This document shows positions 35,143 through 40,211 of a DNA stretch of 64,000 bases, piece after piece; position 1 is the stretch's first letter; each line of letters opens with the position of its first letter. The stretch spans positions 1,414,501 to 1,478,500 of the forward strand of contig NZ_JYNQ01000001.1 in NCBI RefSeq assembly GCF_000934685.1, written 5' to 3'. Below the pieces are notes generated by a model. The model had not been told where the DNA came from. It saw nothing but the letters and a program-made list of their open reading frames with translations, and searched no databases. Origin of the DNA: Lacinutrix sp. Hel_I_90 (lineage in GTDB: Bacteria > Bacteroidota > Bacteroidia > Flavobacteriales > Flavobacteriaceae). The position numbers were made by a program, and so were the translations under genes.

Positions 35143-36990
35143 ATGAATATCGAGGTCTCCTCAAAAGATATGGCTCCTAGCGTCAAAGCGTTAGTTCCAG
35201 CATTAGAACAAGGTAATAGAACAGTGACACCCCTCCCTCACGGAGGGTATCTCTTTTTAGAACACGACGTTCCAGCACTCCTAATCTATCGCGATGGTCC
35301 TAATGAAACAACAAGCAAAAGATTAGTGCGCGGTGGTGCATCTTACCTAATCATTGGCACAAATGAGTTTGATTACTATAAAAAATTCATACATGACCTT
35401 ACGGCCTTGATGTCTGAAAAGTTTGGAGCTTTTATTGTTCTTGAAATTTCTATAGGAGCAACAAATAGTGAGCATTTTATTATCCGTGGGCCTTCGCATA
35501 AATTACCAGTATCATTGGATGTATTAAAAAAAGAACTACTTAAAATAAAAAGCAGACAATATAATGTAACGCTAGGCGTGACTATCGAGCAGCTAAAACA
35601 ACGTCAAGCACAGCAAGAGCCACTGTTTGATATTTCAGGCATCAGAAAAAAAGGGGCAACCTATATAAGTCTGGAGGTTCCTCCTGTCTATCAAAACCAA
35701 CAAGGTGTGATATATCCTGTTTATTTCAGGGATTTTAGAGATCAATTTATCAAGGCTATACAAAAAGCGATTTTTGAATTTGTACGTATACAAACCACCT
35801 CATCCCTTGTAAATTATAATGCATTGGGCAAGCGCGCCATTCATAAAGAAGTATTTAAAATAGACAAAGAACTTTCTAAGATTGAAAACAGTTACCCGTT
35901 TTTATTATTGGTGGCGCCAGTAAATATTCAGGCATTAAGGAGTCAGTTTTTTGAATCACATTTTAAAAAACTAGACCGTTATCACTACCGTTTATTGCCG
36001 GTAGATCCAGATATTTTAAAACGAAAATTATACAATCTTCGCATTGACGAAATCGATGACCCGGCGATTTCTTATCTGTTTGACGAAAAGCGGGAAGAAA
36101 TAGATCACGAGCTCACCATGCTAAAAGAACGTGGCTCAAAAAATTTTTTTTACAGCAGTGTGCGCCTTTACAAAGGGCTGGATAAAGATGTGTTGGCAGA
36201 AGCCCAACTCATCTTACAGAATATAAACGAAAACCATGAGGAAGAAAAAAAAGCACAGATAAACAGCCAAGAATTTAGTAAACTAGCACATTCCGAATTT
36301 GATTATTTCAAAAAACAGGATCCCAATTTTAAGTGCAAAGTGCACATACGGGACGACGTAAATGTGATGATGATAAGTAAAGGTGAATTATATCTCCCCC
36401 GGGATTATACGATGACAAAAAAAGATGCAAAAGCACTCATACAACACGAAATAGGTACTCATGTCCTCACCTACTATAATGGGGCACAGCAGCCACTCAC
36501 GCAAATGGCCTCTGGGCTTGCAAATTATGATGCACTACAGGAGGGTATCGCCGTTTTGAGCGAGTATTTATGTGGTGGCCTTTCGGGGAACAGGCTTCGC
36601 ATCTTGGCAGGACGTGTAGTCGCGGGAGCAGCCCTTATGGAAGGAGCAGATTTTCACCAAGTATTTTTTGAACTCTATTCCCGTTACGATTTTACTAAAG
36701 AACGTGCTTTTAATATGACCTCACGAATGTTTCAAGGGGGCGGATTTTTAAAAGACATTATCTACTTGAAAGGTCTGGTGAGGCTTAGGAACTACTTGGT
36801 CAATGGTGGCGAACTGCAGCCCTTGTTAAAGGGGAAATTTGCATTAAAACACGTCAACGTCATTCAGGACCTTACAGACCGGGATTTGGTGATTGCTCCT
36901 AAATTAACCCCTCGCTATTTCGAGCATAAAAATTTCAACAAAAAATTAATTAATCTAAAAAAGGGACTTTCTCTTTCAAAAATGATATAA
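35143..36990 (+). CDS. DUF1704 (QEGLA-motif) metallopeptidase
   Basis: The 615-residue product matches the DUF1704 family annotated as 'flavohemoglobin expression-modulating QEGLA motif protein'. The catalytic region shows H435-E-x-x-x-H440 (HEIGTH), as in gluzincin-like peptidases, and Q466-E467-G-I-A, the QEGLA motif whose Glu is the probable third zinc ligand. No signal peptide or membrane segment, so cytoplasmic. Eukaryotic members (MATCAP/TMCP) are tubulin tyrosine carboxypeptidases (established). The bacterial substrate is unknown; cleavage of a C-terminal residue is inference. It starts a three-gene unit with an ATP-grasp ligase 2 bp downstream. Confidence 0.9.
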   Translation: MNIEVSSKDMAPSVKALVPALEQGNRTVTPLPHGGYLFLEHDVPALLIYRDGPNETTSKRLVRGGASYLIIGTNEFDYYKKFIHDLTALMSEKFGAFIVLEISIGATNSEHFIIRGPSHKLPVSLDVLKKELLKIKSRQYNVTLGVTIEQLKQRQAQQEPLFDISGIRKKGATYISLEVPPVYQNQQGVIYPVYFRDFRDQFIKAIQKAIFEFVRIQTTSSLVNYNALGKRAIHKEVFKIDKELSKIENSYPFLLLVAPVNIQALRSQFFESHFKKLDRYHYRLLPVDPDILKRKLYNLRIDEIDDPAISYLFDEKREEIDHELTMLKERGSKNFFYSSVRLYKGLDKDVLAEAQLILQNINENHEEEKKAQINSQEFSKLAHSEFDYFKKQDPNFKCKVHIRDDVNVMMISKGELYLPRDYTMTKKDAKALIQHEIGTHVLTYYNGAQQPLTQMASGLANYDALQEGIAVLSEYLCGGLSGNRLRILAGRVVAGAALMEGADFHQVFFELYSRYDFTKERAFNMTSRMFQGGGFLKDIIYLKGLVRLRNYLVNGGELQPLLKGKFALKHVNVIQDLTDRDLVIAPKLTPRYFEHKNFNKKLINLKKGLSLSKMI

Positions 36991-36992
36991 CC

Positions 36993-38045
36993 ATGAACAT
37001 CTGTTTTGTAATAAGCGCTATTGAAAACGAACCCGTTGGGACTTCTGTCGTATTAATGAAAAAAGCCTATGAACGCGGTCATACAGTATATGTAATGGGC
37101 GTAGGTGATTTTGTATTTCATCACGATGCCCCAATGAGTTTGAGATGCAAAAAAGTGAAGAAAAATCTTGACTATACCTCTGTCACAGAATTCTGGACGC
37201 AGGTACAGGAAGATTCTAGTAAGCCAAAGGTCATTACAAGTAAAGATTTAGACGTTTTATTCCTCAGAAACAATCCAACCGAAGAAGCAGATGACCGTCA
37301 ATGGGCAGAACACAGTGGCATTGCCTTTGCTAGAATGATACAACAGGAGGGCGTGCTGGTTCTCAATGACGCTTTTGCAATGTCTCATGCCTTTATTGAT
37401 AAACTTTATTTCGAAGAACTGCCTTCTGTTATAAAACCAGATAGCATTGTCACCAGAAATATGGACGATCTTATTAAGTTTTGGGAAGAAGTAGGAAAAA
37501 AAATGGTCTTAAAACCTTTAGAAGGTTCGGGTGGTCAGAATGTATATCTTATAGGTAAAGACAAAAAGAATCTTAACCAAATTTTTGAAACCTTAAGCAG
37601 CCAAGGGTATGTAATAGCCCAAGAATTTCTACCAGAGGTATCAAAGGGAGATGTACGTGTGATTTTAATGAATGGAAAAGTTCTTGAAGAAGATGGTGAG
37701 AAAGCAGTAATAAGACGTGTAAATAGCGATAAAGACGAATTTAGGAGCAATCTGGCTCTTGGTGCAAAGGCAGAAAAAACAAAATACACAAAAGCCATGC
37801 AGCGCATTGTGGATATCACTGCTCCAAAACTCATTAAAGATGGGCTCTTTTTTGTAGGCCTCGACATTGTAGAGGACAAACTCATTGAGATAAACGTGCT
37901 TAGTCCCGGAGGTTTGGATTATTGTGAGGCCATCGGCTTGCCTGATTTTACAACAACAGTAATAAAAGCCATTGAACGCAAAATGGAGTACAAAAAGCTA
38001 TACCATAACACACTTGAGAATAAGGTGCTAGCCACTATGGATTAA
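36993..38045 (+). CDS. ATP-grasp ligase, glutathione synthetase-like
   Basis: The 350-residue product has a GshB-like pre-ATP-grasp domain (about 1-125, 'LFLRNNPTEEADDRQWAEHSG', 'VLNDAFAMSHAFIDKLYFEELPSVI') and an ATP-grasp domain ('KMVLKPLEGSGGQNVYLI', 'VIAQEFLPEVSKGDVRVILMNGKVL', 'FFVGLDIVEDKLIEINVLSPGGL'). Ligases of this fold form an amide bond between a carboxylate and an amine with ATP. Real glutathione synthesis needs a GshA, which is absent here. The gene starts 2 bp after the DUF1704 stop, so the two are coupled. Confidence 0.9.
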   Translation: MNICFVISAIENEPVGTSVVLMKKAYERGHTVYVMGVGDFVFHHDAPMSLRCKKVKKNLDYTSVTEFWTQVQEDSSKPKVITSKDLDVLFLRNNPTEEADDRQWAEHSGIAFARMIQQEGVLVLNDAFAMSHAFIDKLYFEELPSVIKPDSIVTRNMDDLIKFWEEVGKKMVLKPLEGSGGQNVYLIGKDKKNLNQIFETLSSQGYVIAQEFLPEVSKGDVRVILMNGKVLEEDGEKAVIRRVNSDKDEFRSNLALGAKAEKTKYTKAMQRIVDITAPKLIKDGLFFVGLDIVEDKLIEINVLSPGGLDYCEAIGLPDFTTTVIKAIERKMEYKKLYHNTLENKVLATMD

Positions 38046-38156
38046 AAGGGTAACCTGAGTAGGCGATGCTGTTAAACACACTTCGCAAGCTGTTTGGCTT
38101 AGCCTACGCATAGATCTCTACTTAAAACCAAAAGGAACACTATTTAAAAACACAAG

Positions 38157-39041
38157 ATGACAAAAAGAATTATAGGAACATATTCGAGTGACAAAAAGGG
38201 ACCATTGTTGTTTGTTACTGCTGCGGTTCATGGCAATGAACCCAGTGGCATAAAAGCATTGGAGCATATCTTTAAAATCTTGAAATCAGAAAAACCGACT
38301 ATTAACGGAACAGTTGTAGGCATAATAGGAAATACCACAGCGGCGCAAAAGAAGGTGCGCTTTATAGATGAAGATTTAAACAGAACGTGGACCAAACAGA
38401 CTATTGCAACTAATACCAAAGTGACTAATGAACAAAAAGAAATGTTTGAGATCATTGAAACCCTGCAAAAATTTTCGGAAAGCGGTTTCAGTGAGCGGTA
38501 TTTTATAGATTGCCACACCACTTCTTCAGCGAGCTTGCCCTATATTTCGGTGCAGGAGATTGGCAATAATTTAGCATGGGCACAACGGTTTCCCATTCAT
38601 ATTATCAAGGGATTTTCAGATATTGTTAAGGGCACTATTGATGGCTATTTTAGTGAAAAAAAATTAACAGGTTTCGCGGTAGAAGCCGGACAGCACGAGA
38701 GCAAAGATGCTGCTACCTATCATGAGGGGATTATTTGGACTGCACTTCAAGAAGCTTGTGATTTAAACTTTGAAGCACTTTCAGAAATTCCAAAAGCTGT
38801 ATTAAAAACAAAGAGAAGCACACCATCACAAAAAACCTTTACAATAATATATAGGCACGGACTTGAAGATGGAGATGCTTTTAAAATGCAACCTGGTTAT
38901 GAAAATTTTCAACCCATTAAAAAAGGGGACTTTTTAGCGATACATAATAACAAAAGAATTATAAGCCAATGGGACGGGTATATTTTTATGCCACTGTACC
39001 AAGAACAGGGCAATGATGGTTTTTTTGTGGTTCAAGAATAA
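38157..39041 (+). CDS. M14-family AstE/AspA-like zinc hydrolase
   Basis: The 294-residue product matches succinylglutamate desuccinylase/aspartoacylase: zinc ligands H25 and E28 ('AAVHGNEPSG') and H120 ('IDCHTTSSAS'), and catalytic E176 ('FAVEAGQHES'). The family removes acyl groups or C-terminal amino acids. A C-terminal beta domain (about 205-294) may gate the active site. It lies 111 bp after the ATP-grasp gene, same strand, and is read as part of the unit, with lower certainty than the first two genes. Confidence 0.9.
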   Translation: MTKRIIGTYSSDKKGPLLFVTAAVHGNEPSGIKALEHIFKILKSEKPTINGTVVGIIGNTTAAQKKVRFIDEDLNRTWTKQTIATNTKVTNEQKEMFEIIETLQKFSESGFSERYFIDCHTTSSASLPYISVQEIGNNLAWAQRFPIHIIKGFSDIVKGTIDGYFSEKKLTGFAVEAGQHESKDAATYHEGIIWTALQEACDLNFEALSEIPKAVLKTKRSTPSQKTFTIIYRHGLEDGDAFKMQPGYENFQPIKKGDFLAIHNNKRIISQWDGYIFMPLYQEQGNDGFFVVQE

Positions 39042-39588: not shown

Positions 39589-39691
39589 TTACCAACTATA
39601 ACCACTCTACTCTCAAAAAAACCAATACTTTTAATTAAAAAATTTGGGAAACAGAGATTTTTGGTGTAATTTTACATCAAAAACGCATCTC

Positions 39692-39931
39692 ATGGCACGA
39701 CAAAGCATTTCTTTTACTGAACCAAATGATAATTGGTTAAAAACTCAGGTTGAGAATAATGAATACTCAAGCAAAAGTGAACTTGTTAATGACTTAATTA
39801 GACAAGCACGCAAACAGCAGAAACAAATTGATTGGATTGCTGCAAAGTTAGATAAGGCAGAAAGCAGTGGGTTTACCTCTGATAGTAAAGAGCAGATTTT
39901 ATCTCAATCTAAGAGCTTATTAAATGGCTAA
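39692..39931 (+). CDS. parD: ParD-type antitoxin
   Basis: ATG at 39692 is chosen; an in-frame TTG at 39644 lies upstream of a TAATTTTA promoter-like element. The 79-residue product has the ParD/CopG ribbon-helix-helix opening, 'ISFTEPNDNWLKTQVENNEYSSKSELVNDLIRQA', and a flexible C-terminal tail ('SSGFTSDSKEQILSQSKS') that wraps the toxin. It overlaps parE by 8 bp. ParD represses its own promoter by binding as RHH dimers; that is known for the family. Confidence 0.92.
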   Translation: MARQSISFTEPNDNWLKTQVENNEYSSKSELVNDLIRQARKQQKQIDWIAAKLDKAESSGFTSDSKEQILSQSKSLLNG

Positions 39932-40211
39932 ATACAAATTAAGTAACACTGCAAAAGAGGACTTAATTAGAATTCATCATTACGGAGTTAAAAAATTTGG
40001 TATGGCGCAAGCTGACAAATATTTTGACTCTTTTTTTGAATACTTTGATATTATCTCTCAAAGGCCATATTCATTCGAATCAGTTAATTTTATTAAAACT
40101 GGATATAGACGTTGCGTCTGTGGATCGGATAGTGTGTTCTATAAAATTAATGGTGATATTGTTGAGATAATGGCTATTGTTGGTCGACAAGATTTAAAAA
40201 ATTTAATTTAA
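39924..40211 (+). CDS. parE: ParE-type toxin
   Basis: The 95-residue product is a RelE/ParE fold: 'MAKYKLSNTAKEDLIRIHHYGVKKFG', 'DIISQRPYSFESVNFIKTGYRRCVCGSDSVFYKI' and 'IMAIVGRQDL'. The central Arg-Arg and the C-terminal 'GRQD' fit ParE, whose members inhibit DNA gyrase. The overlap with parD and the plus-strand pairing show a type II addiction module. It is the first unit of the island. Confidence 0.92.
   Translation: MAKYKLSNTAKEDLIRIHHYGVKKFGMAQADKYFDSFFEYFDIISQRPYSFESVNFIKTGYRRCVCGSDSVFYKINGDIVEIMAIVGRQDLKNLI

Follow-up and report, generated by a model that had tools for sequence, protein, structure and literature searches.

A conserved unit of a MATCAP-fold peptidase, an ATP-grasp ligase and an M14 amidohydrolase in Lacinutrix sp. 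Hel_I_90 and related genomes

A stretch of 64,000 nucleotides from the 3.82-Mb genome of the flavobacterium Lacinutrix sp. Hel_I_90 (contig NZ_JYNQ01000001.1, positions 1,414,501 to 1,478,500; hereafter the window) carries three adjacent genes encoding a DUF1704 protein, an ATP-grasp ligase and an M14 amidohydrolase, which form an obligate, operon-like unit (the triad). The DUF1704 protein is a domain resembling N-formylglutamate amidohydrolase (FGase) fused to a true MATCAP-fold peptidase. With moderate confidence, the triad is proposed to act in the cytosol as a module for both the synthesis and the breakdown of a small N-acyl or gamma-glutamyl peptide. The initial annotation had delimited the three genes, with gaps of 2 bp between the DUF1704 and ATP-grasp genes and 111 bp between the ATP-grasp and M14 genes, and open reading frames and Pfam families confirm these assignments. 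The features, all on the forward strand, are as follows.

35143..36990 (+): long-form DUF1704/MATCAP protein, 615 aa (PF08014); FGase-like N-domain fused to a zincin-type carboxypeptidase domain
35176..35817 (+): degenerate FGase-like N-domain, residues ~12-225, probably non-catalytic (hhalign, VIA-align, motif loss)
35896..36987 (+): MATCAP-fold metallopeptidase domain, residues 252-615 (VIA-align to 7z6s)
36445..36462 (+): HExxxH zinc motif H435-E436-x-x-x-H440, invariant in 81 sequences and in all long forms including those of rhizobia
36538..36543 (+): Q466-E467, third zinc ligand, QEG motif (EEG in MATCAP/TMCP); invariant in 81 sequences and aligned with EEG of 7z5g
36993..38045 (+): GshB/PRK12458-like ATP-grasp amide ligase, 350 aa (PF02955, NF009110, 1gsa)
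37863..37895 (+): ATP-grasp metal site D291...E299-x-N301, invariant in 80 sequences; aligned with GLDIIGDRLTEIN of E. coli GshB
38157..39041 (+): M14-clan AstE/AspA-type amidohydrolase, 294 aa (PF24827; AstE 1yw6; aspartoacylase-2 3nh4)
38229..38240 (+): M14 zinc ligands H25-x-x-E28, invariant in 79 sequences
38514-38516 (+): M14 H120, invariant in 79 sequences
38682-38684 (+): M14 catalytic E176, invariant in 79 sequences

A scan of 84,980 species genomes yielded 509 relatives. The analysis covered the best 80, chosen by DUF1704 similarity alone; two of these loci are cut by a contig end. In all 78 complete loci the DUF1704, ATP-grasp and M14 genes follow one another in that order on a single strand, so that the three are neighbours in related genomes as well and their linkage goes beyond chance. 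These loci cover at least 22 named genera of Flavobacteriaceae, Crocinitomicaceae and Saprospiraceae, the nearest relatives at the triad locus being from Winogradskyella (79-80% identity). The median gaps across related loci are 1 bp (DUF1704/ligase) and 19.5 bp (ligase/M14), and the DUF1704 and ligase genes overlap by 4 bp in 33 loci. A fourth conserved gene was not found, the commonest other neighbour being present in 26 of the 80 loci, nearly all from close genera. The active sites had been described as intact in Lacinutrix, and H435-E-x-x-x-H440, Q466-E467, D291/E299/N301 and H25/E28/H120/E176 are indeed all present; the metal-binding and catalytic residues of the three enzymes are invariant in 79-81 homologous sequences, with no broken M14 or ATP-grasp site among the residues examined.

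A separate draw of 199 Flavobacteriaceae genomes gave the same association. Long DUF1704 proteins are encoded at 27 loci, comprising 19 of type A, the window's type (long DUF1704, ligase and M14), and 8 of type B (long DUF1704 and ligase without M14). The 27 high-scoring ligases are exactly the neighbours of the 27 long DUF1704 genes, and the 19 high-scoring M14 genes correspond one to one to the type A loci, a co-occurrence of 19/19/19; the triad M14 proteins score at least 416 bits and the next paralogue 282 bits. The three genes look co-transcribed. Counts of internal promoters and terminators in the triad are near or below those in shuffled sequences, and the 111-bp gap 5' of the M14 gene is single-copy in the genome with an RNA fold that is not unusual. 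In the DUF1704 tree, copies from Membranihabitans (Saprospiraceae) and Brumimicrobium (Crocinitomicaceae) nest inside those of Flavobacteriaceae, and the triad appears to have been transferred as a whole unit. In Salinimicrobium marinum (L129:8875-11034), two tandem copies of the ATP-grasp ligase gene lie between the DUF1704 and M14 genes, which hints that this lineage has a second ligation step. Also, an asparagine synthase gene lies 109-196 bp 5' of the unit on the same strand at ten loci of related genera (L073, L076-L080, L085, L089, L091 and L105). In the window, a ParD/ParE-type toxin-antitoxin pair (39644-40211) lies directly 3' of the triad.

The DUF1704 protein matches PF08014 MATCAP with E 1e-82 (278.5 bits, cut-off 27) and scores 305.3 bits against the QEGLA equivalog TIGR02421, under the cut-off of 338.65. 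The label of flavohemoglobin modulation attached to this family explains none of the gene context, as had been remarked in the initial annotation. The AlphaFold2 model (pLDDT 85) has two domains. Residues 252-615 best match human MATCAP 7z6s in VIA-align (Z 22.8, 3.2 A over 290 residues, 19% identity), where MATCAP ranked first, although it was absent from the top 50 matches of plain Foldseek. The predicted structure thus bears out the suggested kinship with MATCAP/TMCP (KIAA0895L, KIAA0895), which shares the C-terminal domain fold, the HExxxH motif and the downstream E in xEG. Unlike MATCAP/TMCP, the Lacinutrix protein has an extra FGase-like N-domain, is encoded in a bacterial operon with a ligase, and is not expected to have a tubulin substrate.

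Residues 32-218 of the model match N-formylglutamate amidohydrolase 2q7s (VIA-align, Z 12.7). Folded alone, the N-domain gives Z 12.8 to 2q7s, tied with the M14 carboxypeptidase 2c1c, so fold alone cannot separate FGase from M14. In hhalign, a broad FGase profile matches the N-domain with 98.3% probability (E 1.6e-13), and the M14 and ATP-grasp profiles used as controls reach at most 2.4%. A thin FGase profile gave 57% in global and 1.7% in local alignment, and a profile of seven FGases adjoining long forms gave less than 3%; homology was settled by the broad profile. Derivation of the N-domain from M14 was rejected on the low probability of the M14 profile, despite the tied fold scores. The N-domain is probably a substrate-holding pseudoenzyme, because the HDGH and D-x-H-S(-Y-N) catalytic motifs of live FGases are absent from it in the aligned long forms. 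Two nearly invariant residues of this domain, R50 and E101, could be a remnant of its site.

The ligase is nearest to GshB, with RimK as a second-rank relative. It matches PF02955 (GSH-S_ATP) with E 5e-48 and E. coli GshB 1gsa with E 1.3e-31 (about 113 bits), and scores 407 bits against NF009110 (PRK12458, named 'glutathione synthetase'; cut-off 408) and 183.5 bits against the glutathione synthetase equivalog TIGR01380, whose cut-off of 299.05 is not reached. Like GshB, it has the ATP-grasp fold and the D/E/N metal site; unlike GshB, it is always paired with hydrolases in the triad, and its genome lacks the standard GshA partner. The initial annotation was right that no GshA gene is nearby: PF04262 is absent from the whole genome. 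The only GCS2 gene is YbdK-like, scores below equivalog cut-offs and lies 1.7 Mb away in a different cluster, and the genome encodes BshC of bacillithiol synthesis, which suggests that bacillithiol is made. A glutathione pathway was rejected on these grounds together with the wide shortfall against TIGR01380. The TTL family gave no sequence match to the ligase in Pfam, NCBIfam or PDB, which makes a TTL identity unlikely; a distant kinship may still exist. Outside the window, the genome contains a second amidoligase cluster (L179:6032-9402; C1:3192031-3195401) consisting of an RLAN-type RimK ATP-grasp, a GCS2/YbdK-like ligase and an intact FGase, with genes 1 bp apart on a single strand.

The M14 enzyme matches PF24827 AstE_AspA_cat with E 2e-18 (66.9 bits, cut-off 25) and, in PDB, AstE 1yw6 (2e-5) and aspartoacylase-2 3nh4 (2e-3). 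The H-x-x-E...DLNR...H...E active site of AstE/aspartoacylase (M14, clan MC) is shared, and R68 and D-L-N75-R76 are also invariant in 79 sequences. Unlike AstE and aspartoacylase, the triad enzymes constitute a separate branch tied to an ATP-grasp ligase and are far below the equivalog cut-offs (TIGR03242, 47.7 of 305.65; PRK02259, 54.1 of 180). The CCP family was not among the sequence matches and a CCP identity was rejected. A paralogue of about 400 aa, also of M14 AstE/AspA type, is found in about 65 of the 199 Flavobacteriaceae genomes; in both loci viewed (L180:7208-10253, L181:5934-9008) it adjoins a 616-aa protein, which at L180 has CBS domains and no other known domain. None of the three triad proteins has an obvious signal peptide at its N-terminus by eye, and they are therefore taken to be cytosolic.

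The same DUF1704-ligase pair occurs elsewhere with FGase. Shinella and Mesorhizobium have genes for FGase, long DUF1704 and 'glutathione synthetase' in that order, and HMM matches show these three, likewise ordered, in Sinorhizobium; these rhizobial operons presumably correspond to COG3931-COG3930-COG0189. They resemble the triad in the long DUF1704 (about 31% over full length), the ligase family (38% for the Mesorhizobium copy) and the order of both genes, but have an intact FGase upstream and no M14, whereas the triad has M14 downstream and no FGase. This FGase/DUF1704/ligase order is also present in other Bacteroidota families (L168-L171), and FGase and DUF1704 are fused into one gene at L167 and L182, the latter from a Photobacterium. 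Many Flavobacteriaceae have a short DUF1704 gene preceded by those for FGase and a second ligase, and a Na:dicarboxylate symporter gene is often adjacent. None of the 80 M14-type loci yielded an FGase. A tree of 42 DUF1704 proteins places the M14-linked forms in one clade (support 100/100), with L172, whose adjacent M14 gene is on the other strand, as sister to that clade at weak support (86/65). FGase, rather than M14, appears to have been the original partner of the DUF1704-ligase pair, and, as the M14-linked forms make one clade and their loci lack FGase, a single displacement of FGase by an AstE/AspA-type M14 enzyme is the simplest reading. FGase and AstE/AspA-type M14 enzymes both split N-acyl-amino acids.

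At L033, a type B module lies between the genes for GMP synthase and a 531-aa BshC, identified by HMM; neighbours of the same lengths flank the type B modules of L037, L038 and L041, HMM identification being confined to L033. A more distant DUF1704 gene in Pseudoalteromonas (L163) has no ligase or FGase neighbours and lies close to arginine-succinyltransferase (ast) genes.

In the amidoligase neighbourhoods that Iyer et al. are said to have described in 2009, ATP-grasp or GCS2 ligases are reportedly linked with unrelated peptidases. Literature searches on DUF1704, QEGLA and COG3930/PF08014 found no paper describing the present module. Among operons of the ligase-plus-peptidase type, the triad is a variant that is strongly conserved and of which no description was found in the searchable literature.

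The established chemistry of the three families is ligation for GshB/RimK, C-terminal trimming for MATCAP and N-acyl hydrolysis for AstE/AspA. The proposal of a module for a small N-acyl or gamma-glutamyl peptide follows from the fact that all three enzymes act at an amide beside a free alpha-carboxylate. The ATP-grasp enzyme would activate a free carboxylate as an acyl phosphate and join it to an amino acid amine, in the manner of GshB and RimK. The DUF1704 zinc peptidase would take off the C-terminal residue of the peptide or N-acyl peptide, which the inactive FGase-like domain may hold. The M14 enzyme would grip the free alpha-carboxylate with N75-R76 and split the remaining N-acyl-amino acid, a step that may be the counterpart of the intact FGase step in related modules. 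Not glutathione but a glutamate-containing or gamma-glutamyl/N-acyl compound is the likeliest substrate; the symporter beside short-form modules provides a hint of glutamate. In Photobacterium damselae compared at 1% versus 3% NaCl, two adjoining locus tags, RS17020 (GshB-like) and RS17025 (QEGLA/DUF1704), are up 38.4-fold and 27.5-fold, respectively (PMC10308900). These data suggest shared regulation of a related pair and a link to salinity, and are not evidence for the Lacinutrix species.

Several points weigh against this proposal. If the ligase and the hydrolases were expressed together and shared one target bond, ATP would be wasted; they may therefore act on different bonds. The hint of glutamate stems from short-form modules and not from the triad, the loss of the N-domain active site is deduced from missing motifs, and the module type of P. 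damselae is assigned from a related Photobacterium. Also, two genomes, G012 (L033, L034, L062) and G073 (L038, L039, L061), each contain three DUF1704 module types, which means that an M14 module cannot simply be equated with an FGase one; co-resident types may have distinct substrates.

Addition and removal of a residue by the operon, as had been suggested, makes chemical sense, because each of the three enzymes forms or cleaves an amide flanked by a free alpha-carboxylate, and the unit is obligate with intact sites. The net flow may be synthesis, turnover or a cycle; for a reversible write/erase cycle, the apparent co-transcription argues against separately controlled arms. Co-transcription would be natural in a linear biosynthesis of one metabolite, in which, without any reversal, the ligase adds to an N-acyl-protected precursor, DUF1704 trims the product and M14 strips the N-acyl group. 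Such a pathway is unlikely, though deserving of serious consideration: AstE/AspA and FGase enzymes strip N-acyl groups off amino acids and the ten closely placed upstream asparagine synthase genes would fit, but asparagine synthase is near just 12 of the 80 loci in all, and exactly three genes are conserved, without a carrier, exporter, acyltransferase or precursor gene. Salvage, with DUF1704 and M14 degrading imported N-acylated or gamma-glutamyl peptides and the ligase recycling the freed acid or amino acid, would account for two hydrolases per ligase and for the symporter adjoining related short-form modules, and would suit the frequent occurrence of the unit among marine flavobacteria, a group of polymer degraders. 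However, no transporter is conserved with the triad and the ligase is conserved as strictly as the hydrolases, so this explanation carries lower probability still.

A cycle on a protein C-terminal tail, in which the ligase adds a residue and DUF1704 removes it as in tubulin tyrosination, is improbable. MATCAP/TMCP, whose fold and zinc motif DUF1704 shares, trims tubulin tails (PMC10499314), and RimK is a protein-modifying ligase. Against this, the triad ligase is nearest to GshB and the M14 enzyme to small-molecule amidohydrolases, no target protein gene is linked, and the FGase-type partners of related modules act on small N-acyl amino acids. The parallel with the tubulin cycle (TTL, MATCAP/VASH, CCP) drawn in the initial annotation holds for DUF1704 and at the level of the ATP-grasp and M14 superfamilies; the ligase resembles GshB, not TTL, and the M14 enzyme resembles AstE/AspA, not CCP, no protein target is known, and the genes look like one transcribed unit. 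The tubulin analogy is a useful mechanistic hint and not a claim of membership; the ligase and M14 enzyme share only superfamilies with their tubulin-cycle counterparts. A glutathione synthetase accompanied by two accessory peptidases, as the automatic names would have it, is scarcely credible: the PRK12458 score just under its cut-off speaks for it, but the genome lacks PF04262, has its sole, YbdK-like GCS2 gene in another cluster and encodes BshC, and the TIGR01380 score is far short.

Taken together with the module proposal, the relatives allow a broader picture that is tentative and, as a whole, doubtful: the unit would make and remodel an undescribed small peptide, possibly tied to the salinity response, in marine Bacteroidota and, as the FGase form, in Alphaproteobacteria and Vibrionaceae. 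The MATCAP tubulin carboxypeptidases would descend from the peptidase of that pathway, which in the triad would have a pseudo-FGase domain as substrate holder and an M14 enzyme in place of the original FGase. The family of human MATCAP/TMCP is widespread in bacteria, where a tubulin-tail substrate is not expected. Through its fixed link with a ligase and an amidohydrolase, what was an orphan family becomes part of a pathway of three enzymes that could be reconstituted in one tube, and the exchange of FGase for M14 limits the chemistry to be sought to that of N-acyl amino acids. Misannotation is also likely, in that many 'glutathione synthetase' genes in bacteria without standard GshA may make something else.

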